NCBI GenBank assembly: GCA_947646735.1
Contig: CANTFK010000072.1
Span: forward strand, 186,001-250,000
Length of the DNA stretch: 64,000 nucleotides
Direction: 5' to 3'
From: Peronospora farinosa
Lineage: Eukaryota > Oomycota > Peronosporomycetes > Peronosporales > Peronosporaceae
The translations under genes and the position numbers were made by a program. The notes under the pieces were generated by a model, which was not told where the DNA came from, made no database searches, and was given only the letters and a program-made list of their open reading frames with translations. Shown here piece after piece: positions 1-51,217 of the stretch. Every line of letters begins with the position of its first letter. Positions within the stretch are counted from its first letter, which is position 1.

Positions 1-1
1 T

Positions 2-136
2 GCCCCACGCCCAGTGTCTCGTAACACTGGGAGTGAAGATCGACCGTCTGCCAAGAAGGGCCAGAGACGTGGGTCCCACGTTGCTGCGAAATCGCAACAA
101 CATGGTGGACCATCAAAAAACGGTCGGGGTCAGTAG
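2..136 (+). pseudogene. gag C-terminal tail of Gypsy copy L
   Basis: This frame is basic and polar and ends at TAG 134-136. It aligns with the stretch that follows the CCHC zinc knuckle in the other copy (about 60285-60429). The window begins just after the knuckle. The pol frame that follows is offset by -1, so gag and pol were probably joined by frameshifting. Confidence 0.6.
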
Positions 137-258
137 GGGCGGAGCGCCCTACTGATCCAGCAACGTCAAGAGAGTTCGCGGGACTCTTGACGAAGGTTTC
201 TCCCAACACACAGTAACTGTGTGTTGCCGCTCCCAGTGATGAGGTATCCCTCATCACC

Positions 259-921
259 TTGAAGATCGAAGTGACAAAGAACATGTCACTTCGCGCCCTA
301 GTTGATTGTGGGGCTTCGAACAACTTTGTTCGGCGCCAATCGCTAGACGATCGTAGGCTCAAATATGTTGAGCCTACTCCAACGAGGATGACGGTGCGCC
401 TTGCAACTGGCGCATCCGTAACAGTAAAGAAACGTGTAGTGGGAATTCACTACACGCTTGAAGGCAAAAAGTACGATGATGATTTCATCGTACTTGACCT
501 AGATGACAAGTTTGATGTCATCCTAGGATTACCATGGCTCAGAAGGTACGAGCCATGGGTCGGCTGGCAGCATCGAACCGTGAAGATGCCTGCCGCTTGT
601 TCATCAGATGACCATCTGATGAACGTCTTGGAGCTTTCACAAGCGTGTGAATGTACTACGAGTGAGTGTGATGGCCTCACTTGTGGTTCGGTCGCTAGTA
701 CGACTGCACAAGAACTCAGCGTGACAGACAGTCACGCTGTGGAGCAAGCTGCCGGCGGCTGTGCACAAGCACAGGCAGCGCTGAAGGTCCACCACTCGAA
801 TAAGTCGGGTGGACCGGGACATGAATGCTCGCCTAGAGGGCAGCATTCACCGAAGAGTAAACCGATTGCCCAGAAGCGGCAACACGGTAATCCTAGATCA
901 ACTGGAGAGTTGATCGTATAG
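259..921 (+). pseudogene. Retropepsin-like aspartic protease region (pol N-terminus)
   Basis: The sequence VDCGAS is the D-T/S-G-A type active-site loop, here with Cys in place of Thr/Ser. It is followed by NFVRRQS, a small-residue beta region, and the second conserved ILGLPWL segment that follows the flap in Gypsy proteases. The C-terminal third is a low-complexity linker. The frame ends at a stop at 919-921 where the other copy reads Glu. An upstream in-frame TAA at 211-213 separates it from gag. Confidence 0.8.
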
Positions 922-930
922 GATCTCGCT

Positions 931-2058
931 GTGGTTGCGCCACCACAGCTAGAGGAAGTCGATGGAACAAGTTTCATCGAGCCTGCGGGAATAAGTCCCC
1001 AGGAAATAATCACTGAGGGAATAAGTCCCCAGTGCCCTGAGGGAATAAGTCCCCAGGAAGTAACCGAGACGTTGAACGTCTTGGTTAATGACGGATCAAA
1101 CGTAGGCGCTTATACGCTTGATCTGATCGCGCCTCCGAAATTAACTTCGGAGATAACTCAGTTGCCTACGCTAGAACCTAAAAGGTTCTTGCGTGATCTG
1201 CGTAGTGGCAAAGTCAAGCAGATCTGTGTGCTCGTCGCAGAAGACGAGTACATGACTGACATTCGGTCAGCAACAGTTTTTGCCGAGAACGAACGGGTTC
1301 TCAGCAGCTCATCAATGGACGAAAGCGTCCTTGATAAGACGACTCGGATTGAACGATATACATCGCAATCCTGGGAGTCGCTGAAGTCAAATCCTTTGTA
1401 CAAGGATTTGGTCGAATTCAAGGATGTATTCCCTGAATCCGTTCCGTGCGAGTTGCCTAAGGATAAAGGCACTCGACACGAGATCGACCTTGTTCCTGGC
1501 ACAAAATATTGTGTCATGAAGCAGTGGCCACTGCCTCGGGAACAGGTCGAGGCGATCGACAAGTTCTTTGCCGATCGCCTAGCAGCGGGCCATGTGAGGG
1601 AGTCAACTTCACCTCACAGCTCTCCGACCTTCTGTGTGCGCAAGGCCACAGGAGGGTGGCGGATAGTGCACGCGTTCAATAAGTTGAACGCTGCAACGAT
1701 ACCGGCGCAAACGCCAATATCGAGAAAGGACGTAATCATAGATGGTATGTCTAAGAGTACCATCTTTTCGTCCATGGATCTGATGGATGGTTTCTATCAG
1801 ATCCTAATGCGTGAACGGGACATCCCGTACACAGCAGTGAGCACTCCCAGTGGTATGCTCTGGGAATGGTTGGTGATGCCGCAAGGGCTCAGTAATGCAC
1901 CAGCCACATTCAATAGATGTGTTTCACATCTATTGAGACCGGTGCGCGAATTCGCACCGAGTTACTTCGATGATGTGTTCGTCCATAGTCAAGCTATGGA
2001 CGGGAAAACAGACGTGGAAGTCCATAGACTTCACGTCCGTACTTATGCGCGAGCATAA
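931..2058 (+). pseudogene. Reverse transcriptase, N-terminal and catalytic part
   Basis: After a linker with a repeated GISPQ motif comes the RT proper: RHEIDLVPGTKY, then SPTFCVRKATGGWR, FNKLNAATIPAQTPI, SSMDLMDGFYQI (first catalytic Asp), VMPQGLSNAPATF, and SYFDDVFVHS with the FDD form of the YxDD box. An 11-nt deletion relative to the copy at 62290-62340 throws the frame at about 2040, so RT is broken after the catalytic motif. The linker repeats and RT motifs are well preserved, pointing to fairly recent decay. Confidence 0.9.
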
Positions 2059-3202
2059 GTTGTACGCCAACCTCAAGAAGTGCATATTCGAAGCTAGCGA
2101 AATACCACTTCTTGGGTGCATCGTCAGAAAGAACGGCGTACGCTCTGATCCAGAGAAGATCAAGGCGATAACCGACTGGCCAGTGCCAGTCGATGTCAAG
2201 GGACTAAGGAAGTTCCTTGGGCTAGCGGCGTACTTGCACAAGTACTCGCGCAATTACGCGGAAATGACAGTACATCTTTCTTGTTTACTCAAGAAAAATT
2301 TAAAGTGGAACTGGAACGCTGATTGTCAGCGTTCCTTTGAACGTATCAAGCAAAGCTTGATGCAATCGCCAGTGTTGGCGATTGCCGATCAAGACAGACA
2401 ATTTCATGTGGTCTGTGACGCCAGTGATTTTGCAATCGGCTGCGCACTGATGCAATATGATACAGACGGCGCAGAGCGTGTCGTCTGTTATCAATCGCGT
2501 CAGCTGCAACCGGCCGAGCGCAATTACCCGGTGCAGGACAAGGAACTCCTTACCATAAAGTATGCACTGGCTAATTTTCGCGGGTATCTCTTAGGAAATA
2601 GACCGTTCATTGTATATACAGACCATGCGTCACTACGAAAGGCGGTAAACAGTTCACACCTCTCGCAACAAATGGCGAGATGGTTGTCGTTCTTCGCGGA
2701 GTACAACTTCTCCGTGGAGTATAAGCCGGGACGACTTAACGTCGTCGCCGATGCTCTTTCACGTCGGCCTGACCTAGAGCCGACTGTGCAATCCGACAGT
2801 GATGTAAACACCACTGTCGCCACGCTGAGTAACAGCGTCTTGTCGTCGAGCTTACTCGACGACATTAGAAGGGCATGCGCACAAAATAATGATCTTGTAC
2901 GCCTGATGGATTATCTCACGGACCCATCCATGCAAGCTAAGAAGCGCTTGCCTGCCATGTATCGATCTTCTCTCGATCGATACACCCAGCGGAACGGCTT
3001 ACTGTACTACACAGCCGTCAACAACGACACGCCTCGTGTCGTTGTACCGCCACAACATGATCTCAGGTTACGGATCATGTTTGAATGTCACGATGCACCA
3101 ATAAGTGGGCATCGCGGCCGTGAGAAGACTTACCTCACGGTCAGTCTCGACTTTTACTGGCCACGCCAGTATAAGTTTGTGCGCAAGTACGTGCGTGCTT
3201 GA
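2035..3202 (+). pseudogene. RT connection, RNase H and integrase zinc-binding start
   Basis: This continues the polyprotein in a new frame. It has the RT thumb motif LRKFLGLAAYLHKYSRNYAEM and then the Ty3-type RNase H: VVCDASDFAIGCAL, YPVQDKELLTIKYAL, VYTDHASL, and the terminal GRLNVVADALSRRP. The integrase N-terminal HHCC region follows (CHDAPISGHRGREKTY), ending at a TGA where the second zinc-finger Cys codon should be. RNase H residues Asp and Glu appear in the expected places. Confidence 0.88.
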
Positions 3203-3370
3203 GAGGTGTGTCAACGAGTGAAGCCTAGGCCTTCACTCCGTGCACCATTGCAGCCTCAACCCGTTCCGGCAGAGTGCTTGGAAGCCTGTATCAATGGACT
3301 TCGTCTTTGGGTTTCCCAAAGACGCTCACGGGAATAATGGTATTCTCGTGTTTTAGACAGGTTCAGCAAG

Positions 3371-3850
3371 ATGGTACATCTTGTTGCTGTACCTGAGTCG
3401 ATCACAGCAGAGGGCTGTGCTCGAGTGTTTATCGATACAATCTTTCGATTGCACGGTTTACCCCGTGAACTTGTGTCCGATAGAAACCCCCGGTTCACGG
3501 CTGAGTTTTGGTGTTCCGTGTTCCAAACACTTGGAACACGGCTCACAATGTCTACTTCTGACCATCCAGGAACTGATGGTCAGACTGAACGCGCCAATCG
3601 CGTCCTCGAAGAGATTCTTCGAGGTTACGTCCACTCGTTTACGAGTTGGAGTGAGTTCTTGTCAATGGTCGAATTTGCCATCAACAACTCCGTGCATGCC
3701 TCCACGACGCATACACCGTTCTACGTATATGGCCTTCGCCACCCACGTGTTCCCACCTTAGTAGAGGGTGACTCTAATTCAATGGGGGAGGGACTCGCTC
3801 GAGCGAGAACCAATCTGGCTCTTGCTCATCACGCGACGACGTTATGGTAG
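3371..3850 (+). pseudogene. Integrase catalytic core
   Basis: The segment reads MVHLVAVPESITA, RLHGLPRELVSDRNPRFTA (second Asp of the DDE triad) and TSDHPGTDGQTERANRVLEE (Glu of the triad). The first Asp, in the DRFSKM motif, lies just upstream beyond a frameshift at about 3350. It is followed by NNSVHASTTHTPFYVYGLRHP, the usual Gypsy integrase ending. The frame is lost at 3850. Confidence 0.88.
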
Positions 3851-4476
3851 ACGCGAAAGTTACCGAAGTCGTACCATTCGACTTTGGTGAAGAGGAAAAA
3901 AGTAAGAGCGATGACGCTCTTACTGATAACGATGCTGAAGATGTCAGCATCGTTCGAGGTATCACAAGTGAGAACAGTAATGTTCTCGCTGAATTAGTAA
4001 CCGATATCTCTGCAGTGCACTCACGATGCACTGCAGCCAAAAGCAACGAGTCAGCTGAGGATTTCCTGCTGACTCGAGAAGCGGTAGTCCGTTTCGTGCA
4101 AGATTCCATCGCGGAAGCGGTGGATAAGCAAAAGCGAAATGCAGACAATAATGGAAGGGCAAATGCTCAAACATTTATTGAGGGTGATTTAGTTTTACTG
4201 TCAACAGTAAACCTACCCAAACATGTAGTGACTAACGTGGGCATCAATAAATTGTTGCCCAAGTACATCGGCCCGTTTCGTGTATTGCGCCGCCTAGGCA
4301 ACGCATACACGATCGAGTTGCCACGCAGGATGCGTACGCATCCTACGTTTACGTGGGACGTCTTCGTCCGTACGTTCAGTACGCGGCTTCTTCGAACGAC
4401 GAAAATAGCCATTACTCTCAAGAATCCCCTTCAGATTCTTGTTGTCACGAACCAGATTCGATATCTGGTCGTGTAG
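3844..4476 (+). pseudogene. Integrase C-terminal region with GPY/F module
   Basis: An acidic linker leads into GDLVLLSTVNLP and then KLLPKYIGPFRVLRRLGNAYTIELP, the GPY/F module of chromoviral integrases. A one-base loss near 4346 moves the following VGRLRPY segment into another frame, which stays open to 4625. The expected chromodomain is absent. The LTR starts soon after 4740, so a deletion has removed it. Confidence 0.82.
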
Positions 4477-4787
4477 AGATGATATCTTTCCATGATATTG
4501 GACGATCTCCTGACGAGCTGTCGCCAGCTCGTTACTCAGAGAATGAAGTCGCCGTTCATTCTCCAATAGTGCGACAGCATTGTTTGCCCGAGATCAAACC
4601 CAAGCTGTCGCACAATGTCCTCTAAGCGGCGACGCTTATCCCGTTCGTGATCAACATCACAACGGAGCTCACGAGTTACACGGGCAAACCCGTCTAACTC
4701 AGCAGCCAAGTCCGATGAAAGAATCGGACAGGGTTTTTCCTCCAATATTGTTCCTAGATCTCCTTGAAGTTGGAGATGCCCTCTCAT
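4294..4787 (-). pseudogene. Antisense coiled-coil ORF, copy L (two overlapping fragments)
   Basis: The minus strand carries two frames, 4787-4536 and 4566-4294, that together form one coiled-coil protein: RVTRELRCDVDHERDKRR, LEDIVRQLGF, then NERRLHSLSNELATARQEI and a basic C-terminus. The plus-strand-oriented counterpart at 63465-63911 has them in one frame. A roughly 10-nt deletion at about 4600 separates them here. The reading starts inside the LTR edge and ends near the integrase C-terminus. By hand alignment the antisense protein differs from the other copy at about 20-29% of positions against about 42-48% for the overlapping sense frame. No function is known. Confidence 0.5.
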
Positions 4788-5102
4788 TGGTTGATATGGG
4801 CCATCATATCAACCAACGCGCTGACCAATGACCGATAGACGCGCGCAATGAGTGGAGGGCAAGTCGTCAACATACATAGTTGTAGTTTAATATAGTTAAC
4901 ATAGGTTATAACAGATTAGTTTTATTAAGATAGTTAACTATATTAAATACAGTTTTTCTTTTCCTCTACTTCTAAGCGTTTGTTTAGAAGTAAAGCTTCC
5001 TCTGCCTCTTGTGTAAGAGAGGTTTTAAGGCACCTGCTTTCACTGTAATCAGTGAAAGTAGACTATCCTGTAATCAGTATAGTCGGAGGGTGCCTCATTA
5101 CA
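4749..5102 (+). repeat. 3' LTR of Gypsy copy L
   Basis: It aligns with 58842-59179, the 5' LTR of the second copy, and has TG...CA ends. The left boundary is approximate because a few bases of similarity continue upstream. It carries a 12-bp stem at 4787-4798/4805-4816 and two hairpins near its end (5037-5058 and 5061-5084). Confidence 0.8.
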
Positions 5103-6106
5103 CCTGTTGTGTGACGATTAGACAGATGGGACAAAAGAAGACAGGTTTTTTTTGACAGTTAGGACAAGGCCCCTACGCTTGCAATGTGGACCACCGAGAT
5201 GGGCAGGTGAGACGGATGCCATCTGACACATACATGATCAAGTTGCAGTGCCTTTAGGATACATGTTGTACTGTTGACAAACAAGAGTAGTGAATGCTAA
5301 ATATATTTTACTTTTACTTCTATCCACCTTTGCACAAGTGCATCAACTAAAAGCATCAATTTTTACAGGTTATGAGCCCAATCAGGCGGTGTAGCTAATC
5401 AAGCTGGACCCGTCGTGGTAGCTGACGGCCCTAACAAACCGACGACCACCGCTTGAATTGAAGTTGGCAGCGTTCGTGGCGGCCATTGACATGGTGCTGG
5501 TTATGCTCGGGGACCCATCCGAACGGATCAATCGGACGGAGGTCTCCCAGAAAGAGCAAGTCGGCAAGCACTGAAAGGGCCCATCAAAGCAAAGCAGTTT
5601 TGGTCTGTTAGAGGGCGTCCTGCGGACCATGTTTCCGTGGGCTTTAACATAAGCCCGGGTGCATCACAGGCAGGATATGCCTGCGGGCTACAATCTCGGT
5701 ATGGGTATGCCGAAAAGGATGTATGTTCACCCGACAACCTGTCAAACACGATCTTTTGTAACATCAACACGTCTTGAGAGTTTCAAGCGAATCGGTACGT
5801 GTCAGACTTTTCTTGAAGAAAGTGAATAGGTACGGAGATATAAGGGATCGAGGGTAATTTCGTGGTAATCTTGTTTGTTTAGCATGTTTCCATCAGGTAA
5901 ATAAGTAAAACAATGCTGTTTTCTTTAGCAAAAGTCCCAAGTAAACGATGCTCATGTAGTATTTTTTTCTGCCGTGGAAAGGGCAGGTATCCGTCCTAGC
6001 TTGTCATACTATGACTCACTCCTACAGTTTGGGCCAAAACGACATATAAAACTGCCGTTGGCATCGAATTATTAACATATACTTCGATGTAAATTATAAA
6101 TCTTCA
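5103..6106. other. Intergenic, no supported gene
   Basis: It lies between the LTR and the bZIP stop codon. Two overlapping minus-strand frames (5382-5630, 5528-5770) could be a decayed coding fragment, but no family is recognisable. Confidence 0.5.
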
Positions 6107-9556: not shown

Positions 9557-12500
9557 ATGACCAAGACAGAAGCCACTGAGTCCGACGTTGTGGCGTCACT
9601 CGGTCATTCGACAGCTACAGAAGCGGTGAAAAGCAACGCAACCAGTTCCTCAGTATCTACAGATGTGGAAATGGCGCTAGAGGCTCGTCTCACGTCGTTT
9701 TTCAGTGCCTACGACGCCTCAGACGACGAGCAAGAATTAATTACCGCCTTCTTGACCACATCTCGTGCCTCTCAGTGCCTGTTGACGCAGCAATTATTAG
9801 CCAATTCAGCAGTCAAGAGCTTTTCGAAGCTACTCCAGTTCTTTTTATGTGTTATAATGGCTGCACATACCCGGTCACACGTCAGTTACCGCGAGAAAAA
9901 ACCGGTACACGAGACGAGTTCAATTTGTTGCTCGTTATCCCGAAATACCGTTGAAAGTTGCAGGAATGTAGCGCAAACCGAGCGTGTTACTGGTATGAAA
10001 GACAGTTGCGACAAGTTGAAGTTGCCCGAGAAGTTTCACAAGTGTTTAGCAACTCATTATGGCAGTATCAAGCGACTCAAGTGTGAAGAAGTGTGGCATG
10101 GAGACCATATGGCGTACAGATGCAGGACTTGTGGTCTCTCGGATTCGAGTTGTATGTGTCTAGCATGTTTTGATCCAGCGGACCATGAAGGACATGATTA
10201 TCGAGTGTATCGCTGTTCTTCTGGTGGCTGTTGTGATTGTGGAGATCCATTGGCTTGGAAACCTCAAGGTTTTTGCAAGAACCACAGTGCTCAAAAGGAG
10301 AAAAAAGGACAGAGTGAAGATAAAGTGACTATGATGAAGATGCATCCAGAAGAAAATGCGATTGTTCAGATGTTTGTAAGGCAAATTATGGAGTTTTGCG
10401 TCGAAACGTTACGTGAAGTACATGTGTCGTGTTTGAGACCACATGCAAGAGAAAATGCAGATCCATTCTATCCGCGTCGAATGCTGCCTAGGACAGGAAT
10501 GCTGCGCTCGGCGTTTCCTCCGATTGTTAAGGTGCACGTTGACAGATTGCAGCAGACGCTGACGTGGCTGCAGATGCTCTCGATGAGTTGTCTTTATTAT
10601 CGCAAGGTGATATCGGGGATGTTCTTTGAAGAGGTACCAGCGGGATTTGAGCTGGATGCGGTGTCTACTCAGAGCACCATGAGCACCTTAGAGAGTTTGT
10701 CTGAGCAACCGATTGAAGAAGGACCAGTCGAGACGGTACCAATAACCGGAAAATCAGATGGAGAAGAAGTGATGGGAGGAGCTTTCAATCATGGACCTCT
10801 GCTGATGCTTGATATATTTCTAAAAGCAGGGGTACTGCTGCCTGTTGAGACGTGTGATGTGCTTGGCGTGTTGTACCTGAAGCTACTGTTCGACCAATCG
10901 TTCAAGCAAATGTACACTTGCCACTTTGTAGAATGGTATCCGTACTTTATCGAGCTGTACCTGACTGCTAGCGACGAAAACAATGAAGACGGCATGCGAA
11001 ACCTGTCACGATTTATTGATCGTCTCTTCTGCCAGCTCTTCCACAGTAACGCACAATTGCGCGAACTGGAGATTGTTTTCGCGTCGATGCGACCTACTTT
11101 CAACACACATGAGACCCAAGGAACCCGTTGTCGTCGACGGCGGCGGCAGCCACATCATGTTGATGGCATCTTTGCTCCAGCGTCCGACTCGACACCATCA
11201 TCCTGTGTCGAATGGCTAATGATATTTTTGCTAGAGAAGCTCAATGATTTATTTCGAAGTACTCTCCGGCTAATGACTATCCTGCCTCAGCCTCTTATAA
11301 ATGGGATCCCAACTAGTAGTAGCAGTACAAATGGGAGCAGCACATCTACGGTGGCCATAGGAACTGTACCAGAGGCTCCGCCTGTGTTACGGGCAGTCCA
11401 AACGGTGGACTGCGGACGAAATGTGTACAAGAAACGAATATATGCCCGATTATGCTCCGATTTACGAACACTACTGGTACATCCACAGATCGCAGCGGAA
11501 GTATTATTGAGGTCTTACCGTTGCATTGGCGAAGACGACCGTGTTCTTCGCGAGGCGTCAGTGTATGCGCAGCTCATGAAAGCCTTCGAGTTGCTGCAGC
11601 ATATGGATTTACAGACTCGTCATGTTCACCAACATGTCGAGTATGAGTCTCAAAACTGGACATTTGCTTTTGTAGCAGACTATGAAATGAAGCTACTGCT
11701 TAGTGCTTTCCTTACGGGCATTCCTGCTTGCTTTTCCAGAGAGGTGTGGCAGAGTATTACAACGGGGAAACAAGGAGCAATGGGAGTAATTACGGGTGGC
11801 ACACCGCTCAATCCGTTAGAAGTAGATACCTTCCGACCTGTTGCGCTGGCTCGAGCAATTTTACAACCCGTGCGAGCATCGCTGGCCCGGTGGACGAAAC
11901 GCAATGGAAGACTCGAATTCGTATTTGATGCGGCAGAACTAGCTGTAACTTCCGCTGGTCCTGGCGAGGCAGCGGATACCGAGGCTGCAACAGTCACTCA
12001 GCTTGTTAAGTACTATGAGCAGGGCACTGTAGCTCATGGGGGCGCAAGTGCAAAGAGCTTTCACTTTCCGCTTCATCAAATGTACGCAGCACTAATTCAT
12101 GCTCTGTGCGGCGTTGTGCGTCCCCAGACTTTGAACGACTGGCGCGAGTTGCTGGGCATGGGATCTACTGATGCTGAAAAGCGTGAGGACTTGACGTTCT
12201 GGTATAGCGCGCTGGATCACCCTCTCCGTGTGCTTCTTTTTTCGAGAGAGATTAAAGCTGGTCTATGGGTACGAAATGGTGGAGTGATGCTGCAACAGTT
12301 GATTCATTATCATTCAAAACATTGGCGGTACTTCGGTCTTCATTCTGACTTGTTCTTATGCCAACTGGGGGCTACCCTCCTTCCGCACGGGAGTTTCGCG
12401 CGTATTTTCTTTCAGCAGTTGCCGTTTAGTATTCGTGATTCGCATGTGCTTGGACTAAGCTCGCCGACTATCATGCAAACTGGTGACGTTGCTGGCAACG

Positions 12501-15500
12501 CTGACCACAGTCGTGAGCTGCGCCAGGAGCTAGACGTTGTGGAGGAGGCGCTGCGCCTCTTACTTCAGCTTGTGCTGGCACCTGTCAAACTGGCATCTGC
12601 AAGCTCACCCGAAACAGCCGCGGTATGGCTTCTTGAGCGCGAGATCATGCACTGGCTGACATTAGGCCCGTTTACGCGTAGTGAGGTAATCATGCGAACA
12701 GACATGAAGTTGGTGGAGCAGATTAAGCAACTTCCAGCGCACGAATGGGCAGAGTTGGAAGAGGAGGAAATTCTTACCCATGTACTGGAGAACGTTGGTG
12801 TACATGACGACCCAGTTGGAAGCAGTAGTGGTTCTCGTACTTCTCGAAGCGGCAGCGTTTTAGGATGCGGACTCAAGATGAGTGGGTCGTGGAAATTGAA
12901 GCCCGATCTGTGGTCTCGAGTGTCTCCTCTGTTTGAATGTTTCACGCCATCTGAAGCACAGCAATGCGAACAAAACACCCGCAAGAGTGTTCTTAGGACA
13001 AGTGGCGAAAATGATATCTCGACAACATCCGCTGTCCTGTCCATGTTGCCTTGCGCACAATTTGAAGGAGCGTGTAGCGTTGACATGCATGGTGCGATTG
13101 CCGAAACGATGTTGAATTCGTCGTATATGGCCAGCGTTTTGTTCGTCATTTTTGAAAACTACAAACGTAAGATTGTCGCACAGCACCAAAGCGAGCGAGT
13201 AGACAGCGACGATCAAGACAGCACCACAAACGAGAATCTTTTGCTTGCTGCACTGCATTGTCTGTACGTGGCGGTCGAGATGCTACCAAAGGATATTCGG
13301 AGCCAGCGCGTGCAAACTTCGGGAAACTGTGTTGTTATCGAAAGCAAACTAAATCTGGACGACATTGCCAAATGCTTCGAGGAAGAGAGCAGCTTCTTCT
13401 TCAAACTTTGTACCGAGATACCGCTAGAACCCAATGCTCAGTACAAGGGGAACGAAGCAACAACTTCTTCATGTAGTTTGTTGTCGCTGCTGCTATTCTT
13501 CGCTGAAGACAAAAGGGGGATGGAGGACTCGCGCTTTATGGTGAATATGATTCTTGAATCACTACGTGATAAATCGGCAGCCTGCTCACAGTATATTGAG
13601 CAAAAAAAGGTGGATGCCCAGTCGATAGAGCGTATCAATGACTCCAATTCTGATCGCGTTGGTCGATGGGACAGCGTCGACACACGTGGCGAACAACCAA
13701 AGCCTAGTGCAAAAGAGATGATAAGAAGACGACAGCAACAGATATTAGAGAAAATGCGGTCACAGCAGTTGCAGTTTTTGTCTTGCAACAGTGACACATT
13801 GGTAGACGAGACCATGGAAAGTAATCGTAATGTTACAGAAGGCAACGGCATAGATGTGGACTCTAATAGCGACAGCTATGACGAAGCAATGGAGTCTGAT
13901 GAGTATGTGGAAGAAGACCATGAGGAAGAGAAAGATGAATGGGGGTTTCCTACTGGTCAGGTAGATGTGCATCTGTATTTGGATCATGTTACCTCAGCTA
14001 TCGCTCATATGAGAGAAAAGCAGCGAAAGTGTCAAGACCGGAGACGGCGGCGCAGGCGACGCACTCGAAGCTCGTCAATTACGGCCGAGAGCGACGAGAG
14101 GGAACGCTCATCCTCCGTAAGTTACGACTGCGGCTCGCTAGATGATCATTTGCCTCAGACTGAAGAGTGTGGTTTGTGTCGTTTACCGTGCGACCCACGT
14201 TCCCGTGAATCATCGTTTGGTCTTGTGGGTATGATATTGCCGACGAATATGCCACACAAAATGGAAAAATGCTCACTACTTACCACGAGTTCGGACGTCC
14301 GTCCTTTTGTGTCATCACGACTACCTTCACTCCGCGTGCGTATACCAGGAGATACCGATGAAACGTGCATGCAGCTTCCGGACAGCGTGGTTTGGAGCTG
14401 TGGCCACGCTATTCATCACACATGCTTAAAGGCGTATCTTATGTCGTTGTGGAAGCAAAAGCACGGCCGTGTTCCCTTGGAGATGGCAAGTGGTGAAGAC
14501 CGCCTTCTTAGCGAGCGTGATATGGAGTTTGTGTGTCCAATCTGTCGCCGGCTTTCCAATTGTCTGGTTCCGCGCATTTCCCTTGAAAAGCTTCGTGAGC
14601 GGGTATCAGCCACTGAGTTGATGGACATGGAACTTGGATCGGACGAAGAAGAGGAAGAGAAAGACGATGGACAGGATCCATTGGACTTCCTTCAGTGGCT
14701 CGACACCCAGATGAGTTTTCGCGATGACTCGCCAGTAGTCAAGCGACGGCGCTCTCGGACGCAGTCGAGTTTGCGTCTAAGGCGGCGTTTGCTGTCATCT
14801 GCATCGAAATCGTCGTTATCTCCCAGGTCGCGATCCTCTGCTGGCTCTACGTCGTTTTGTGGTGAGCAGGGTCCTACTGAGCAAGATGTAAGCGTAGAGC
14901 GTGAGATTGGCGCCTTCTGTCACGAAATCGTGTTACGTTCCGTGCGTGCCCAGTTGTACCTACCGACGCTCCTGACAAGCTCCATGCGCGATGAGAGTAG
15001 CCTGGATTTGGAAATGCAGCAGCTGAGCTCGGAGTGCGGTGCCCAAACTCCAGCGTGGCAATTGCTTTTGCATTGTTTAGAGGTGCAATTACGCGTGGCT
15101 GCACGTGAAAAAACACTTTTGCAGACGGATGCTGTAGATTCGTTACAGCTCCGTTCAATGCGCCAGCTTGCAGATATAACAGCAGCTGCAGTGGCGTTTT
15201 ATACTCCAAGTTCATTGGCATGGACTGTGGTAGAAGCGCCGACTGACAAGCAGTTTGAGAGCGTTATGACACGACTCAATGGTCTGATATTCGGCCAGCA
15301 AGTGCTCGTTGAAGAAGATGATGATGCATGCACTACTAAGTATAATACTCGCTACCAGCTGCAAACGGGTGACTCCGAGGAAACAACAAATGCAGCATTA
15401 GTTGGGACGCCAATATTGTGCCACCCGCGGTTGCTGACGTGTTTTGCAATGAGGATGATGTGGAGACAAAGCATAGCAACACCGAACGCTGATGTAGCAG

Positions 15501-16750
15501 CTGAGCAGCTACTCACTGAAGCATTTTTCTCGGCGCGGATATTGTTCACAGCCCAGGTGCTGCAATCACTTGCCTATCTATCACTGCAAGATGGGCAGCA
15601 GTCATCGACTAATGAAGCAAACAATAGGAAAGAAGCAAATGTCAAGAATACTAAAGAAATTCGTGACTTTGAGGGAGTAGAGTCGCTTCGCGACGCATCT
15701 GCGTGGATTTCGCTGATGCTGGCGCGGTCTCGCTTAATGGAGAGCAAACCGATCGTGTCGCCTGACGTTAAGCTTCAAAGAAAGCAGAACAAAGCTGCGA
15801 TCGAGGAACAAGTGAGCGTGTTGTGCTTACCACTGGCTCAGCAGATGCTTCTGCTCATGGATGTCGTCGTGCCTCCAATGCCACATCAACACCACAACGA
15901 TAGTCAAGGAAACGGCGAATCCCAAGCGCCCCAGGTTGTTACCGAGTCTTGTGCCGTGTGTGATGGATTGTTTTCTTCGACATCGGCGTCAACTGAATCA
16001 CCTTCGGCGTCTGTGCTGCTGGAAAAGTGTCTGCGGAGACTTCATTTACCCCCTCTGAGACTCTTCTTCCACCGTCAGATATTCCCGTCCAGTCAGCGCG
16101 CATTGTGCCAGCTCTGGGGTGCTCAGCTCGAAGCAAAGGCTGCCGTTTCTCGACAGCAAGCTCGCTCTAAGGCGCTGGTAACTTGTGATTCTCCTTCTCT
16201 GGCCGATATGTTTCCGCTACAGCAACAAGTGATGCTACTTTCGTCTCGAGCTTTCGCCATCGCCTCTAGTGGAGCAAACTACCGCGTTCTCATTCCACTG
16301 CCGCGCGTGTACATGGACTTGTTTATCCGTTACAACGAGAAGCCGACAGGAGTCTGTCACCAATGCGCCCAGGTCCCCCAACATCCAGGATTGTGCCTCT
16401 TTTGTGGTGAAGTGATGTGCTGTTTTTCGGCATGCTGCGAGTCAAAAGAAGGTGGTGGCGTGGGTGAGTGTACTCAGCATGCCCAGCGTTGCGGTCTTGG
16501 ATTGGGTGCTTTCTTGTTACTGCGTGCGTGCACCGTAATCCTCTTTTTAGGCAACGAACGACGGTGTGTATGGGGAAGTCTCTATGTGGATAAGAATGGC
16601 GAAGAAGACCCATACCTGCGACGTGGTAAGACGCTGTATCTCGACTCGAGTCGCCGCTTGGCGCTGGAATCATTGTTGGTCTCGCATAGCTTCTCCCAGA
16701 ACACTGCTATCTTGCAGAACACGTCAAGACGGGACGGACGTCGGTATTGA
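9557..16750 (+). CDS. UBR-type E3 ubiquitin ligase of the N-degron pathway (UBR1/PRT6-like)
   Basis: This is a single open frame of 2397 residues. Residues about 175-243 are a UBR-box zinc finger (KCEEVWHGDHMAYRCRTCGL, then CDCGDPLAW, FCKNH), which binds basic N-terminal degrons. Residues about 1536-1665 are a split RING-H2: ECGLCRLPC, an insert, CGHAIHHTCLKAYL, and FVCPICRRLSN. Residues about 2230-2380 are the C-terminal UBR autoinhibitory (UAIN) zinc region (CHQCAQVPQHPGLCLFCG; GEEDPYLRRGKTLYLD), ending near VSHSF as in UBR1/2, so the protein is complete. Acidic and Arg/Ser-rich low-complexity stretches flank the RING. It would ubiquitinate N-degron substrates in cytosol or nucleus. Residues about 100-140 look like a lineage-specific insert or a retained intron. 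Confidence 0.92.
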   Translation: MTKTEATESDVVASLGHSTATEAVKSNATSSSVSTDVEMALEARLTSFFSAYDASDDEQELITAFLTTSRASQCLLTQQLLANSAVKSFSKLLQFFLCVIMAAHTRSHVSYREKKPVHETSSICCSLSRNTVESCRNVAQTERVTGMKDSCDKLKLPEKFHKCLATHYGSIKRLKCEEVWHGDHMAYRCRTCGLSDSSCMCLACFDPADHEGHDYRVYRCSSGGCCDCGDPLAWKPQGFCKNHSAQKEKKGQSEDKVTMMKMHPEENAIVQMFVRQIMEFCVETLREVHVSCLRPHARENADPFYPRRMLPRTGMLRSAFPPIVKVHVDRLQQTLTWLQMLSMSCLYYRKVISGMFFEEVPAGFELDAVSTQSTMSTLESLSEQPIEEGPVETVPITGKSDGEEVMGGAFNHGPLLMLDIFLKAGVLLPVETCDVLGVLYLKLLFDQSFKQMYTCHFVEWYPYFIELYLTASDENNEDGMRNLSRFIDRLFCQLFHSNAQLRELEIVFASMRPTFNTHETQGTRCRRRRRQPHHVDGIFAPASDSTPSSCVEWLMIFLLEKLNDLFRSTLRLMTILPQPLINGIPTSSSSTNGSSTSTVAIGTVPEAPPVLRAVQTVDCGRNVYKKRIYARLCSDLRTLLVHPQIAAEVLLRSYRCIGEDDRVLREASVYAQLMKAFELLQHMDLQTRHVHQHVEYESQNWTFAFVADYEMKLLLSAFLTGIPACFSREVWQSITTGKQGAMGVITGGTPLNPLEVDTFRPVALARAILQPVRASLARWTKRNGRLEFVFDAAELAVTSAGPGEAADTEAATVTQLVKYYEQGTVAHGGASAKSFHFPLHQMYAALIHALCGVVRPQTLNDWRELLGMGSTDAEKREDLTFWYSALDHPLRVLLFSREIKAGLWVRNGGVMLQQLIHYHSKHWRYFGLHSDLFLCQLGATLLPHGSFARIFFQQLPFSIRDSHVLGLSSPTIMQTGDVAGNADHSRELRQELDVVEEALRLLLQLVLAPVKLASASSPETAAVWLLEREIMHWLTLGPFTRSEVIMRTDMKLVEQIKQLPAHEWAELEEEEILTHVLENVGVHDDPVGSSSGSRTSRSGSVLGCGLKMSGSWKLKPDLWSRVSPLFECFTPSEAQQCEQNTRKSVLRTSGENDISTTSAVLSMLPCAQFEGACSVDMHGAIAETMLNSSYMASVLFVIFENYKRKIVAQHQSERVDSDDQDSTTNENLLLAALHCLYVAVEMLPKDIRSQRVQTSGNCVVIESKLNLDDIAKCFEEESSFFFKLCTEIPLEPNAQYKGNEATTSSCSLLSLLLFFAEDKRGMEDSRFMVNMILESLRDKSAACSQYIEQKKVDAQSIERINDSNSDRVGRWDSVDTRGEQPKPSAKEMIRRRQQQILEKMRSQQLQFLSCNSDTLVDETMESNRNVTEGNGIDVDSNSDSYDEAMESDEYVEEDHEEEKDEWGFPTGQVDVHLYLDHVTSAIAHMREKQRKCQDRRRRRRRRTRSSSITAESDERERSSSVSYDCGSLDDHLPQTEECGLCRLPCDPRSRESSFGLVGMILPTNMPHKMEKCSLLTTSSDVRPFVSSRLPSLRVRIPGDTDETCMQLPDSVVWSCGHAIHHTCLKAYLMSLWKQKHGRVPLEMASGEDRLLSERDMEFVCPICRRLSNCLVPRISLEKLRERVSATELMDMELGSDEEEEEKDDGQDPLDFLQWLDTQMSFRDDSPVVKRRRSRTQSSLRLRRRLLSSASKSSLSPRSRSSAGSTSFCGEQGPTEQDVSVEREIGAFCHEIVLRSVRAQLYLPTLLTSSMRDESSLDLEMQQLSSECGAQTPAWQLLLHCLEVQLRVAAREKTLLQTDAVDSLQLRSMRQLADITAAAVAFYTPSSLAWTVVEAPTDKQFESVMTRLNGLIFGQQVLVEEDDDACTTKYNTRYQLQTGDSEETTNAALVGTPILCHPRLLTCFAMRMMWRQSIATPNADVAAEQLLTEAFFSARILFTAQVLQSLAYLSLQDGQQSSTNEANNRKEANVKNTKEIRDFEGVESLRDASAWISLMLARSRLMESKPIVSPDVKLQRKQNKAAIEEQVSVLCLPLAQQMLLLMDVVVPPMPHQHHNDSQGNGESQAPQVVTESCAVCDGLFSSTSASTESPSASVLLEKCLRRLHLPPLRLFFHRQIFPSSQRALCQLWGAQLEAKAAVSRQQARSKALVTCDSPSLADMFPLQQQVMLLSSRAFAIASSGANYRVLIPLPRVYMDLFIRYNEKPTGVCHQCAQVPQHPGLCLFCGEVMCCFSACCESKEGGGVGECTQHAQRCGLGLGAFLLLRACTVILFLGNERRCVWGSLYVDKNGEEDPYLRRGKTLYLDSSRRLALESLLVSHSFSQNTAILQNTSRRDGRRY

Positions 16751-16834: not shown

Positions 16835-17359
16835 GTGAAAGCTGATGCGTCTGGTTTCCAGATACAGGAATGCAGCGTGCGGATCAGCGGACAGTTGCCG
16901 ACTGCCAGCGGTTCTGAAAGGGCTAGGATGCAGGGGGTATCGTATTCTATGCGAATTCAGTCATTAACAGGTTCCCATCAAGCGTGTCCAGCACTATCGC
17001 GAACAAACAACGTACTATTGGCCCTGAAGAAACAACCGTTTCGTCGCTACAAAGGTGTGGAAAGCATGCTGATACGAACGCTGAAGACAGTCAAGGACTC
17101 AGCGCGGGGAAGTGCGTGGCAGACAGCAGTTTTACAGCAGATAGCAATCAATTTATGGGCTCATCGAAACGAGCTCACCGTGTACCATGTTTGGGTCGTC
17201 TATAGAAGCGCAAAGAGGCAACTAAATAGCTGCCATCCAGACCAAGAACAAGATAATAGTTGCTGCAAGCTCCACTGCTGCCAAGGAGTGAAGGAAACAC
17301 TGTACCATATCTGCTGGACATGCCCGTGCGCGCAAGCTTGCTGGCAGAAGCTCATCTAG
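16835..17359 (+). pseudogene. Possible non-LTR retrotransposon (zf-RVT-like) remnant
   Basis: The C-terminal part, KETLYHICWTCPCAQACWQ, has the spacing of the Cys/His zf-RVT segment found at the end of LINE-type reverse transcriptases. The rest is not recognisable. It lies directly behind the UBR gene. It could equally be a chance ORF. Confidence 0.3.
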
Positions 17360-18617
17360 AAGAACGATGGAGGTTTGGATGACTCTTGCAAAAAAATGCA
17401 AGCAGACCCGAGTGATGTTTCAGCAAGTGAATGTGACCATCGCCGGTAGCGTTTATGAATTTTAAAAAAACTTGCATGAGGCAATTTCAAGCCGTAGCAA
17501 AGCGAGAGCGTTGGCAAAGCAACACAAATATACAAAAAAAATTCGTGTGACGAACCAGGCGCTTAGGATCGACCTGACAGACATCCTGCTATCACTAAAA
17601 GTTAGATAGACTCGTCTGTCCCTCTCTCTCTCTAGCTAGAAAACCCACTTGATTTCAGCAGTATACAGTTATGTTCCTCCCCCCCCCAATCGTTTGTTTG
17701 TACTATACTAAGTGCAAGTGGTGTTGGACTCTTCTTTGATCCATTTCAATAGGGAACCACTATCAAATATGCTTGACAAATCCGAGAATGAACCCATACT
17801 TTTGTCCATGTCGCAATGTCGAGTGGACGTTTGTAATTGCGTTTTGGCAGTTCAGTCCGCACGCAAGCGACGGTATAATGCTAGAAAGTACAGTAGATCA
17901 GGTTTTATAGGCTGGTGAGGGTATGCAACAGATGTGTTGTATGCATGGTGAAGTGTTAGTTATTAGCTCGACAGATTTCTTGAAAGTATGTTTCTTTTAT
18001 CATAACGAATACTAAGTTAAAGATCAAAGACAAACGTCACATTTCTTCCGGGCTTTGAAAATGAGGGGTATCATTCAGGTAGTAAGACACTTGAGCCAAT
18101 GAAATCACTAAACATTGTTGTCACGGTAACGTCTTCTATCTTCAATGAAAGAGAGAGTATCAGCTGTCGTAGAGTGAATCCACTCGCATATTGTCTGTTC
18201 ACAACTAGCGATCGACTACGTTTTTGTTGAATAATACTTGGGAAAGTGATGAAATAGCTAGTCATGTGAAAGACACTTGAAGCCCTTGACGACTTGCATA
18301 TATATATGTACATTTCCATACGATTCATGAAGCCACATGTGATTCCTAAAGCTTACAATGTCGACTTTTACTCACCCTGCGTACATTACCACTTGTTAAA
18401 ATTTCTAAATGGTAACGCGGCCTGAGCCATGAACAACCGACGGATGGGCCCTGTCGTATGTTGACCTTATACAGCCACGTACGGACGATCATCCCTTTGT
18501 AGTACAATTTGATGCAGGTCGGCCGTACATCTCGACGTCAATCCCATTCCAATTTTCACCTTGTCACGGTGACTTTGCACCCTTCCGCTCGTCTCGATAG
18601 CTCACTCTAAGCTCAAT
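17360..18617. other. Intergenic, nothing recognised
   Basis: A/T-rich with short homopolymer runs (for example a C tract near 17680). Short ORFs show no family features. Confidence 0.5.
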
Positions 18618-19751
18618 ATGTGGCGTCAATTCGGTCTGCTCTGCGCGCTACTAGGTGTTACTGCTACTGCTGATACATCTAGCAACGCTACCGGGTGGCA
18701 CATGGCACCTATCACCATCATGACGGCCCGCATCCAAGGCGACCCTCCTGTCTGGAACGCAGAGTTGGGTCTCTGGCTCTCCAAGTACGGTTCGACAACG
18801 AATGAAGCCTAAATGAACAACCTCGACACGGTCAACATGGCATCTATTGATGGCGCTTTAATGTTCGTTCAGGCTGAAGGGATCAACGTGAATAAACAGT
18901 CGGTCAAGTGCGAGCGCAAGAACAAGATGCAGTACGTTGTGTTCTACGAAATGGTGATCATGCAGCCAACCAGTAGCATCGCGTACTACAACAACAAGCA
19001 CAATGTCCCTGAGTTTGGCCCATTTGTGGCCATGGACGGTGGCAAGTGCACGAATGCAGGAGTCGACTTGCCTGAAAGCTGCAAGGTCTACTACGGATTG
19101 GACGGAACCATAAACGTTGGTCCGAATGTTGGCTGCAGCCTTCAATCATCGGATCCACGTGCACTTTACCCTGGCACTTCCTGGATTTCATTCCCAAACT
19201 CATGCGCTCATAAATACCGTGCGGAGAAGACGCATGAGTTCAGAGCTCAGTTCCCTGGTGGTCTTTGTCCCATGGGAGTACAACCTGATGGAGTGATCTG
19301 CACGTTCACTTACAAGATCAAGGGCTACTTAAACATCGACGACCTGGTTGGAATTACCAAGATGGGCTTTAGCAGCTACCAGCAGTTTTGCGAAAGTGGC
19401 GGTGTGGAGTTCAAGGCTACGAACACTGGTCAAGGATTCCAAGTGGAGCAGTGTATTGATTTTTGGAAAAATTCTGGTGACCCACAGGCGAATGCCATGC
19501 GCACCACTCAAATGATTGACATGTATAACCAAATGTCAAGTAGCGGTTCCATCCCCAACATGACCCCGCTTCCAAATGTTGAGGTGCTCACCGAATCGAA
19601 CCCGCCTTGCTACCGAAATAGCGCGACATGTGCACAGGCTCAATACGGTTGCAAGCGTGAAGGGCTTTCACAAATCTGTTCGGTGTGTAACGGCGAGGAG
19701 CCTGGTTGTAAGAAGGCTCCTGCAGACTACTCATTCCCCGTCCTGTCGTAG
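18618..19751 (+). pseudogene. Secreted cysteine-rich family, copy 1, with in-frame stop
   Basis: It starts with a clear signal peptide (MWRQFGLLCALLGVTATA) and matches copies 2 and 3 across the cysteine-rich domain (WHMAPITIMTARIQGD, NNLDTVNMAS, GGLCPMG, YLNIDDLVGITKMG, QICSVC). Codon 65 is TAA at 18810-18812 where both other copies have TAT, and the frame is otherwise intact on both sides. It also stops right after the domain and lacks the Ser-rich tail and GPI signal of copies 2 and 3. It is either a recent pseudogene or, if the stop is an assembly error, a soluble secreted variant. Function is unknown. Confidence 0.75.
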
Positions 19752-20191
19752 CCGCAAGCCAACTTGTGGCTCCTTTGGCTCGTTCATTCGGTCTGTTTAC
19801 GGTCTAGCTATTTCAAGGGGCTGCTTCAGTAAGCAAGCAGTACACAATAACATCAACGAAAAAATATGTTTAAACCTGCACCGATGTCTTTGTCATGTGC
19901 CATAAGATTGTAGTAGTGACTTCGTGATGAGGTGCCATGGGACGCTACAAAATGGTATCAAGGTCGTTTTTCCGACGTATTTCGCTAGTCTACAGCCATA
20001 TCCGAGGTAGAGACCCTTTTGTACTGTACCAAAAACAATGTGATTCCCTTCCCATTGCACAAAAAAATCAGGTTCATCCCCATCCTGTGTCCTCTACAAA
20101 TCAAGGGGGGGGGCATTAACCAATTCCTTTTGTAGGATATCTACAGTATCTACTATTTGCGTATAGGGTGTCTTGATCGAACTCGTGAACA
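19752..20191. other. Intergenic between copies 1 and 2
   Basis: No supported gene. It contains the upstream region of copy 2, with a run of G residues near 20106. Confidence 0.5.
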
Positions 20192-21631
20192 ATGTGGCAC
20201 CGCTTCGGATTGTTTCTCTCTCTTCTCATTGGAGCTCCTCTGGCTTTGGCTTCTCACACTGCGCATCTCACCATGATGGTAACCAAGGAGTCTTCGAGCA
20301 CTCCGACCACTTCAGGTTCCATGCCAATGGCAGGACCTATATCGACGGCCGATGCAGGACCTGTTTCGGCACCGGCCGATCCAGGAACTGTCTCGGCTGC
20401 CGACATTAAAGACTCCACTTCGTCTGACAAACTTGTTACTTCTAACCCGTCATCTAGCGGCAGCTGGCACATGTCGCCCGTGACGGTCGTCCAGGCTCGT
20501 ATTCAAGGTGACGCTCCTGTATGGAACAAAGACGCCAAGATGTGGCTGTCTAAGTTCGGTGACACGGCCGAGCTTGCTTATATGAACAACTTGGACACTG
20601 TCAACACGGCGTCGGTCGAAGGAGCTTTGATGTTTGTACAGGCGGAAGGAATTAACGTGAACGAACAGTCAGTCAAGTGTGAACGTAAGAACAAGATGCA
20701 TTACGTGGTCTTTTACGAGGTGATGATCGCTCAACCAGCGTACGGCATCAAATATTACGAGAACCACACGCCCCCTGAGTATGGCAAGTTTGTGGCTATG
20801 GACAGTGCCAAATGTACAGACGAGAACAGCGATCTGCCGGTGGATTGTAAGGTCTACTACGGACTGGACGGCGAGCCTGACATTGGTCCAATGGTGGGCA
20901 GCAACCTACAGACATCGGACCTTCGTGCACCGTACCGTAACAACTTCTGGTTCTCGTACCCAAGCTCGTGCGCACAGAAGGTGCGTGAGGAGAAGACGGA
21001 CGAGTGTCGTGCTGAGTATCCTGGTGGACTGTGTCCTATGGGCGTCAAGCCTGATGGTGACAAGTGCACGTTCAGCTACAAGATCCTGGGTTATCTGAAC
21101 ATTGACGATCTGGTTGGGATCACTGAGATGGGCTACAGTAGTTACAAGGAGTTTTGTGAGGACGGAGGGGTGGAGTTCAAGGCCACGAACACCGGTAGCG
21201 GCTTCAAAGTGGAGGAGTCGATCGACTTTTGGAAGAAGCCGGGGGATGAAGACGCCAACTCAAACCGCACGAGGTCCATGGTAGAACTGTACAATAAGCT
21301 GGTGAGCAAAGACACGAGCTCTAATATGGAATCACTTCCGACGATTAAGAAGCTGACAGCGGCGAACCCCAAGTGTTACGAAAACAGCAAAGCGTGCGCG
21401 ACCTCCCAGTACGGCTGCAGCCGTACATTGTATTCGCAGATCTGCTCGGTGTGCAACTCGTCAAGCAATGGCTGTGAGGTTGCTCCCTCTACGTTCTCGT
21501 TCCCAGAGCTGAAGCTGCCAGCCAAATCCGATGGCTCTTCAGGCCCGGGAACTTCTGGTTCATCAAGCAGCTCTGTGACGGCTTCATTGACGTCGGTTCT
21601 CGTGGCCGTTTTTATCACCAGCCTGCTGTAA
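20192..21631 (+). CDS. Secreted cysteine-rich GPI-anchored protein, copy 2
   Basis: This 479-residue protein has a signal peptide at residues 1-20, a Pro/Thr/Ser-rich spacer to about residue 90, a cysteine-rich domain at about 93-445, and a Ser/Gly-rich tail. It ends in a hydrophobic stretch (TASLTSVLVAVFITSLL) preceded by small residues, typical of a GPI-attachment signal. It is therefore probably displayed on the cell surface. I recognise the family only as an oomycete secreted one, with no known biochemical role. The core is almost identical to copy 3 (minus strand, 27511-28572), while N-terminus, spacer and tail differ sharply. Confidence 0.85.
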   Translation: MWHRFGLFLSLLIGAPLALASHTAHLTMMVTKESSSTPTTSGSMPMAGPISTADAGPVSAPADPGTVSAADIKDSTSSDKLVTSNPSSSGSWHMSPVTVVQARIQGDAPVWNKDAKMWLSKFGDTAELAYMNNLDTVNTASVEGALMFVQAEGINVNEQSVKCERKNKMHYVVFYEVMIAQPAYGIKYYENHTPPEYGKFVAMDSAKCTDENSDLPVDCKVYYGLDGEPDIGPMVGSNLQTSDLRAPYRNNFWFSYPSSCAQKVREEKTDECRAEYPGGLCPMGVKPDGDKCTFSYKILGYLNIDDLVGITEMGYSSYKEFCEDGGVEFKATNTGSGFKVEESIDFWKKPGDEDANSNRTRSMVELYNKLVSKDTSSNMESLPTIKKLTAANPKCYENSKACATSQYGCSRTLYSQICSVCNSSSNGCEVAPSTFSFPELKLPAKSDGSSGPGTSGSSSSSVTASLTSVLVAVFITSLL

Positions 21632-22640
21632 GTGTAGGATGGCTGCTGTCTGACATTCTTTTTGTTCACGCTGGAGCATTCATAAAGGCTAGGCGAATCC
21701 AACTTCATTTGGTTTTGATTTTGTATCCGAACTCGTTGATGGTGCTTTTGCTTAAGTTGGCATCGCATTTCTAGTAAGGAGGCTTTCTAAGTTGGCAGGA
21801 AGTTTGGTCAGCGAGTTTGCCATCATCATGTTAATTTGTTTATCTCAAAGCACATCTGGCCCTTCGCAGAATGCCTATCATAAAGCTCAAGGCTAAAGAA
21901 AAAGTGATGGCTACGAGCATTGAAGTGCTGTCGACTTATAGTTTCTCCTGCTTCACATCTTGTCCAAACGTTTCAACAAACTGACACTACTTGCTTGACT
22001 TCTTTCCTTTGATTTTCTCGATCGCAAGTCATTCCGTACCGATGTAATGGTAACGAGCTCTGATTGTGTAAACTTGTGCGCTTCTGGAGTCAGAATAGCT
22101 GTTTTCAAGTGCTCGAGATCCATCAGCACCCACAATCGTTCATACACTTATAAGATGATTGTCTTCTCGCTATCTGCTAAACATCATGCGGATAGTCTAG
22201 TCTGTCCAGCCAACGAAGGTGGAAACTGTACACGTTCTCGCAGATTAAAGACTACCTGCTTGCTGGTAGCATAAGTTGTTTCGTTGAAGCAATGTTGTTT
22301 CCTACTGTGCCACGTTGGAAGGTTGTGGTAGTGGCACTAGTTTGCAATCAACAATAAGCCACGCATTGTCCCAGGATCGACAGCACCACAGCACTAGAAT
22401 CTCAGCATGGTGATAGAAATGTTTCAACACGAGCTAGTACGCGTCAGGGTCTCGTGCTTTCACAGGATTTTTGTAGCGAGATACGGGCGTTTAAATGCTG
22501 ACAACACCACACCATTCACTGCACGCGTACGAAGAAATCCGGTGAATTAAACCGACAATACACGGAAAGAAGATTAGGACTGACCATCTGAGCAGCACCA
22601 GTCACGTTTATATGGAGGTGATGGCCCAACTCTTTTGCGC
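21632..22640. other. Intergenic, nothing recognised
   Basis: It lies downstream of copy 2. Only short ORFs without family features are present. Confidence 0.45.
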
Positions 22641-22649
22641 GTCTTCTAA

Positions 22650-23206: not shown

Positions 23207-23302
23207 CGTGGGCGTGAAAAACTGTCCTTCATTTCTTCTTCTCTCTGCGAGGTAAGCTAAATTTTTACAATCTCGTCCGTCCGTACGCAAGCATCTGAAT
23301 CC

Positions 23303-31709: not shown

Positions 31710-31739
31710 GCAGGCTGAGTTTCCGCGCAGATTGCGGGA

Positions 31740-45507: not shown

Positions 45508-45668
45508 GCCTATGGCCAGGCCTCTTTATATACATATTAATTTGTAGATAGGGTAATTAGCTAGTTTACCGCTTATTATATACGGATCACGTATTATTTA
45601 TCTCTTAAAACTAAAATATAAGCATAAAAGTTGTAACGGGTAACACGACAATTTTAACATCATTCCGA

Positions 45669-51215: not shown

Positions 51216-51217
51216 AT

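Follow-up and report, generated by a model that had tools for sequence, protein, structure and literature searches.

Why should a retrotransposon carry short perfect hairpins throughout its length, and what keeps them there? The question is raised by a 64,000-nucleotide stretch of the oomycete Peronospora farinosa (contig CANTFK010000072.1, positions 186,001 to 250,000; called the window here, with positions counted from its first letter), which holds two incomplete copies of a retroelement, copy L at its left edge and copy R near its right end. By their sequence, both are members of an abundant Ty3/Gypsy family, which we call family A. A sequence-only reading of the window had claimed that these copies are built of back-to-back exact inverted repeats, and had named selection for RNA structure and template-switch correction during reverse transcription as possible causes. 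Our analysis bears out the pattern and extends it to the family. As to its origin, we lean with moderate confidence towards selection that keeps the replicating genome folded, helped by template switching.

Hairpins in the window and across family A

Non-overlapping perfect hairpins with stems of at least 8 pairs and loops of 3-14 bases were counted in the window and compared with dinucleotide shuffles. All 21 arm pairs listed by the sequence-only reading (18 in copy L, 3 in copy R) are exact reverse complements, and five of the stems in L and one in R extend 1-3 pairs further than it had given. Its estimate of several tens of hairpins in copy L agrees with our count of 45 in positions 1-4816, against about one by chance (100 shuffles: mean 0.84, standard deviation 0.98, maximum 4), and copy R is hairpin-rich as well, with 28 in 58800-64000 against 0.9 in shuffles. 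The UBR gene, which had been described as free of the pattern, indeed has 1 hairpin in 9557-16750 against 1.08 when shuffled. Elsewhere, 17000-32000 holds 4 hairpins against 2.7, and 44500-58500, part of which is another Gypsy element, is mildly enriched (9 against 2.4). The proposed spacing of one palindrome every 25-60 bases proved generous for copy L, where stems of at least 8 pairs come once per 107 bases; it does fit L013, another family-A locus in which more hairpins are intact and where the median distance between centres is 43 bases. In L013, hairpins with stems of at least 6 pairs span 45% of the sequence, compared with 4.6% in shuffles. The features concerned are the following.

1-4744, forward strand: copy L, internal part of a family-A Ty3/Gypsy element with perfect hairpins throughout; runs in from the left window edge
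353-377, forward strand: example hairpin, stem 10, loop 5
433-740, forward strand: representative stretch with a predicted row of hairpins, minimum free energy (MFE) -146.5 kcal/mol against -92.8 in shuffles, z -10.4
1910-1936, forward strand: example hairpin, stem 12, loop 3
3928-3954, forward strand: example hairpin, stem 11, loop 5
4735-5106, forward strand: long terminal repeat (LTR) piece attached to copy L, with hairpins 4787-4798/4805-4816, 4967-4975/4984-4992 and 5037-5045/5050-5058
58801-63420, forward strand: copy R, 5' LTR and internal part, an older relative with about 90% identity to family-A copies and fewer intact hairpins

The pattern is shared by all 20 family-A loci sampled at 7 kb, with 6.7-13.0 hairpins per kb against 0-1.6 per locus (mean of five shuffles) and about 90 hairpins per 7 kb. 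Codon-preserving shuffles, against which the sequence-only reading had proposed to hold it, leave it standing: each of 20 open reading frames (ORFs), taken from 8 copies, holds 13-43 hairpins where the shuffles give 0.28-1.35, and in L013 the pol frame has 43 against 1.1, gag 19 against 0.74 and a third frame 14 against 0.52. The excess over codon-preserving chance is about 25-50 fold. Four host ORFs, for which a lower density had been expected, have 0-1 hairpins each, the same as when shuffled. Chance or base composition is excluded as the cause by the dinucleotide and codon shuffles, and a host-wide habit by the host genes and most window tiles.

For stems of at least 7 pairs in L013, the excess is 41-47 fold at loops of 3-6 bases but drops to 4.6 fold at 12-15 and to 1.4 fold at 51-100; perfect stems in its hairpins reach 12 pairs at most. 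LTR, coding and 3' noncoding DNA of family A all carry hairpins, and each of fourteen 500-base steps of L013 has 3-12 of them. The hairpins belong to the element: in the single copy examined for this, they end at the LTR edge (L037 1601-2800, beyond the LTR and the inverted LTR piece beside it, has 0). They are lost as inserted copies diverge, density being lower the further a locus has moved from L013 (Spearman -0.92 over 18 loci, with L027 and L029 omitted as incomplete), and are retained only while the element keeps replicating.

Predicted folding energy

The folding energies of family A, another check that had been proposed, also depart from codon-preserving shuffles. Four coding pieces fold in the sense direction at -391 to -407 kcal/mol per kb against -265 to -273 for the shuffles (z -14.5 to -24.8), a calculated excess of 30-35% of MFE, and four host genes lie at z 0.0 to 2.0 in the same direction. 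Two noncoding pieces of family A (one 5', one 3') show a 41% MFE excess over dinucleotide shuffles, and 13 of 13 tiles of copy L have a folding z of -4.4 or lower. For scale, the 16S and 23S rRNAs of E. coli exceed dinucleotide shuffles by 7.0 and 3.9%, respectively. Genes of the RNA phages MS2 and Qbeta resemble family A in that their coding RNA gains on both strands; they differ in the size of that gain, which is 18-25% over codon shuffles, and two MS2 genes have 0 and 1 hairpins (stem at least 8, loop 3-10) whereas family-A pol has 37.

Variation between copies

Family-A copies differ chiefly through private changes (27 copies mapped on L013). Such changes mostly arose after insertion, while variants shared between copies have likely passed through replication. 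In the 48 copies sampled for variant rates, 21 of which cover at most 2.9 kb and another 7 about 3.2 kb, codon-position-3 sites carry private changes at much the same rate per site in stems (0.293), loops (0.340) and elsewhere (0.282). Codon-position-3 variants present in at least three copies, which may include repeated hits and among which three loop variants derive from one shared loop inversion, occur at 13 of 464 stem sites (0.028), 16 of 147 loop sites (0.109) and 75 of 1428 sites elsewhere (0.053), giving P 0.0002 for stem versus loop and P 0.03 for stem versus elsewhere. This ranking is unchanged under three other stem thresholds.

The spectrum of the private changes is an observation in its own right. 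Among 1291 changes in 27 copies, C>A (152) and G>T (153), like C>T (249) and G>A (259), are strand-symmetric, and the richness in C>A and G>T may be an oxidative signature.

Changes that preserve pairing were sought between copies and between families, in family A and its sister Gypsy families B, C, D and E. The stems of L013 comprise 531 pairs, of which 76 show single and 9 show double changes in copy R (90% identity); 8 of the 9 double changes stay Watson-Crick (2.3 expected, P 0.003), all 8 being transitions. Conversely, stems of R read in L013 keep pairing in 2 of 2 double changes (0.17 expected, P 0.0065). Between families, stems of C read in B have 12 of 20 double changes Watson-Crick (4.7 expected, P 0.0005), and stems of B read in C pair in 8 of 17 when at least 7 pairs long (4.4 expected, P 0.057) and in 10 of 27 when at least 6 (6.9 expected, P 0.13).

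Protein coding appears to limit the pairing. In coding hairpins, fixed interior mismatches lack a codon-position-3 partner in 18 of 31 cases compared with 202 of 540 paired positions (P 0.035), and the phases of pol and gag hairpins (28, 22 and 10; P 0.015) are skewed towards wobble-position pairings.

Sister Gypsy families and other retroelements

Folding takes other forms in the sister families. The counts of perfect hairpins with at least 8 pairs in three 3.3 kb pieces of families B and C are 13, 11 and 9, against about 0.6. These two families have 7 hairpin centres in common out of 31 and 28 (counting stems of at least 6), where 0.45 are expected. The sense folding gain of B, C and D is smaller than that of A (z -3.1 to -7.7). 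Two pieces of family D hold 1 and 0 perfect hairpins with stems of at least 8 pairs; instead, locus L032 of this family, counted without a tandem-repeat stretch, has 25, 18, 10 and 8 mini-hairpins (stem at least 5) for loops of 3, 4, 5 and 6 bases, against 2.9-4.2, with loops of 7-14 at chance. Two family-D relatives are also mini-hairpin-rich (23 against 5.1 and 13 against 3.0). The tandem repeat itself, an 87-base in-frame unit with several mini-hairpins each, starts L032 (1-400). A repeated sequence motif was rejected as the cause, as the listed family-D hairpins differ in sequence, save copies within this repeat.

The geometry is family-specific: stems of 4-6 pairs, mostly ending at 6, with loops of 3-6 bases in D, and stems to 12 with loops to about 15 in A. 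Closing pairs are purine-first in 46 of 74 cases in A and pyrimidine-first in 39 of 57 in D. These differences would fit hairpins that are dispersed binding sites for an element protein such as Gag, with a preferred size in each family. We consider this improbable, since a thermodynamic or polymerase-specific cause would likewise vary by family and the listed hairpins, compared by eye and with no motif search, have no common motif.

Family E is represented by locus L056 and by a minus-strand copy in the window at about 51.9-57.6 kb.

51879-57600 (approximate edges), reverse strand: family-E Gypsy copy with 3 perfect short hairpins against 0.8

In this family, 5.6 kb contain just those 3 perfect hairpins, and imperfect folding is strong, with a minimum folding energy difference (MFED) of 16.6% and z -14.8. 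The window copy has 12 of 13 tiles in 52401-57600 below z -3; the tiles of L056 are uneven (z -2.2, -2.4 and -7.6). Over the 132 tiles outside L and R the mean z is -0.77, and 18 lie below -3: the 12 in the family-E copy, the tile at 45601, which contains a 48-bp inverted repeat, and those at 8401, 20001, 39201, 48801 and 50801.

Retroelements outside Gypsy show little of this. Three Copia loci, L038-L040, came out best in one search and are much alike; each ORF holds 2 hairpins, compared with 0.2-0.33, and MFED is 1.4% in L038. Copia L081 has 2 hairpins against 0.42 with an MFED of 9.4% (z -5.7), and L082 has 0 hairpins and an MFED of 5.3%. Some Copia elements may show a mild effect, because mini-hairpins are about twice the expectation in both (12 against 6.0 and 11 against 5.8). 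The ORFs of two LINE-like loci (resembling long interspersed nuclear elements), L079 and L080, contain no hairpins. Within the limits of these few loci, the low Copia and LINE-like values rule out a property of all retroelements. A search for relatives in IMG/VR gave 58 pattern matches, none of which was confirmed.

Taken together with family A, these styles allow a bolder proposal, which we put forward tentatively and hold to be rather less than an even bet: within a single nucleus, a clade of LTR retrotransposons may have evolved folding of its whole genomes in several family-specific styles (long perfect hairpins, strict mini-hairpins of 5-6 bp, imperfect branched folds) that are held by selection in the lineage that replicates and reinforced by template switching that makes palindromes, with coding sequence under a geometric rule.

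Template switching

Direct traces of template switching were found among the copies. The loops of L013 were compared with those of 49 other copies. Of these 2466 comparisons, 14 show the exact reverse complement of the L013 loop, at least 2 bases having changed, against 0.1 per set for equal-length control intervals outside hairpins. The 14 inversions map to 10 loops, and in 7 of these only one copy is inverted; in L076 the inversion alters 7 of 7 bases, and in L016 it affects a 14-base loop with four bases altered. In the hairpin at L013 331-356, a multi-base change with an indel is mirrored in both arms and is common to four copies, and single-pair mirrored arm changes number two, in one copy each (L016 and L025). 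Arm homogenization and spacer inversion are also reported for template switching in yeast genes (PMC8604942); there the repeats are scattered in host genes, whereas here the inverted loops lie in 10 hairpins of one transposon family. The inverted loops and the mirrored change show that template switching acts on family-A hairpins.

Switching of this kind is possible in chromosomes (PMC8604942), and the loops inverted in a single copy would suit an origin at that level, in which host replication or repair makes or keeps palindromes as a general property of the genome or its composition. We give this explanation next to no probability. It is already contradicted by host genes at chance and by most tiles outside L and R lying near chance, and it accounts poorly for the scarcity of hairpins in Copia and LINE-like loci, the drop in density with divergence and the equality of private changes in stems.

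Could template switching then be the main cause? In such self-correction, at reverse transcription or DNA synthesis, the nascent strand would copy the opposite arm, which would make imperfect palindromes perfect and invert loops, and palindromes would spread as a mutational runaway limited by the protein. The loop inversions, the mirrored change at L013 331-356, the yeast precedent, the absence of a G-U preference and the slightly raised amino-acid change in family-A stems (both given below) all speak for it. However, stems are broken by substitution in 506 of 2430 hairpin-copy comparisons (20.8%) and exact loop inversions amount to 0.6%; at these rates, taken among the compared copies, switching alone would not keep stems perfect, and private changes are not lower in stems. 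The compensatory changes relative to R concern single pairs and are transitions in 8 of 8 cases, fixed interior mismatches persist between matching pairs and do so more where codon position 3 cannot adjust, family E combines strong folding with a scarcity of perfect palindromes, and most stems of family D end at 6 pairs. We therefore regard template switching as an unlikely main cause, while retaining it as a contributor.

Proposed selection for a folded genome

The evidence for selection on structure consists of the depletion of shared variants in stems, the compensatory changes, the mismatches at amino-acid-constrained positions, and a sister family that folds strongly without palindromes in the style of family A. 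Under this explanation, the folding of the replicating nucleic acid, either the genomic RNA or its complementary DNA (cDNA), would be under purifying selection; synonymous sites would be adjusted to pair and would carry most of the load, and template switching would add a mutational pull towards perfect palindromes. The likeliest benefit, at a guess, would be that a self-paired genome is compact, is easily packaged and leaves few accessible targets for the small-RNA machinery of the host. The host genome has 4 Piwi-domain matches, and paired RNase III domains occur in two frames; these Argonaute- and Dicer-type domains point to a candidate small-RNA pathway.

Several results weigh against selection for folding. 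Shared variants at codon positions 1 and 2 have equal frequencies in stems (0.0144) and outside hairpins (0.0146), with loops at 0.0462; noncoding stems show no clear depletion (0.0227, compared with 0.0297 for loops and 0.0318 for the remainder); and divergence from R, an old copy, is 0.090 in stems, 0.095 in the rest and 0.124 in loops. The folding gain of family A is equal for sense and antisense and, since the phages too gain on both strands, the strand cannot be told by the folding test. Both causes named by the sequence-only reading have found evidence, except that nothing singles out the sense RNA. Fixed interior coding mismatches likewise show no excess of G-U over A-C (4 versus 14). 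Among shared stem variants, the ratio of G-U to A-C was 10 versus 2 with 27 copies, shrinking to 15 versus 8 with 48 (P 0.38 relative to private variants). Avoidance of purine-purine mismatches was considered as a minus-strand signal and dropped, because MS2 has a similar pattern and the numbers are small.

Comparisons between families add to these difficulties. Stems of A read in B pair at chance (20 of 62 double changes, 19.3 expected), family D showed no double changes in four comparisons, and family E gave no compensatory signal (standard pairs in 0 of 3 and 1 of 1 double changes). Hairpin positions common to A and another family are few at stems of at least 8 pairs: B and C have 2 each (P 0.034 and P 0.018, respectively) and D has 0. 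Locus L054 of family D has no sense-strand folding gain. Among family-A residues that B, C and D conserve, changes are slightly more frequent in stems (16 of 75) than outside (49 of 414; P 0.04), a rise that is not seen in families B, C and D themselves. Finally, the loop inversions and the mirrored arm change demonstrate a mutational process that could account for some or all of the effect.

Element structure and neighbouring features

The Pfam domains of copy L follow the Ty3/Gypsy order.

259-921, forward strand: aspartyl protease region (RVP_2)
931-2058, forward strand: reverse transcriptase region (RVT_1)
1970-3202, forward strand: RNase H and integrase zinc-binding region (RT_RNaseH_2, RT_RNaseH, Integrase_H2C2)
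3844-4476, forward strand: SH3_Tf2-1 region near the end of pol

The ORF at 3371-3850 gave no Pfam match to an integrase catalytic core, and copy L does not have the 3' stretch present in other copies beyond the position equivalent to 4744. A search of the genome (46.85 Mb, 274 contigs) with the reverse transcriptase piece returned 492 candidates, and the 40 that were scored are all 97-100% identical. The genome also has 22 matches to the Elicitin domain, a mark of oomycetes, in keeping with its source. In the single copy examined, spanning loci L013 and L037, direct LTRs lie on the same strand (L013 7-469 and L037 787-1248, 98.9% identity), which gives an LTR of about 463 bases and a calculated full element of about 8.2 kb. 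The inverted LTR piece next to it (L037 1247-1539) abuts its 3' LTR, placing LTRs head to head. Soon after the end of copy R, positions 63500-63807 hold an inverted fragment with 79-85% identity to the family-A 3' internal end, which we assign to a nested or rearranged insertion.

Other features of the window were noted. A perfect 48-bp inverted repeat with an 18-base loop (45669-45716/45735-45782; tile z -12.8) adjoins sequence related to the LINE-like L079 and looks like a small inverted-repeat element. The fragment at 49579-50184 has about 75% identity to family-D Gypsy and takes in a portion of the 87-base tandem repeat region. Two legume-like lectin ORFs form a tandem pair (39611-40852 and 41121-42389), and a perfect 15-bp inverted repeat (39272-39286/39296-39310) lies upstream of the first, at a distance of about 300 bases.

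Relation to known systems and significance

The purpose of genome-wide RNA structure in RNA viruses is debated. Such genome-scale structure is known in these viruses, with RNA shielding as a suggested role (PMC9784701), and family A resembles them in a folding excess across the whole coding genome relative to codon-preserving controls. Family A differs from them in being a nuclear LTR retrotransposon and in its short perfect hairpins. With Ty3/Gypsy elements in general it shares the protease, reverse transcriptase, RNase H and integrase parts and the LTRs. As far as is known, RNA structures in these elements and in Ty1 are local signals, whereas the hairpins of family A run through the whole element. 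Structured 5' motifs are described for Ty1 RNA (PMC5454406). A narrow search of the literature on structure in retroelements or Ty3 found no comparable case, which does not show its absence from print.

A nuclear retrotransposon with many recent copies offers two clocks, one of private changes, mostly made after insertion, and one of shared changes, mostly replicated. Whether a structure is selected or made by the polymerase is therefore directly testable. Moreover, the differing fold styles of sister families in one host, together with the little-structured Copia elements, provide built-in controls.

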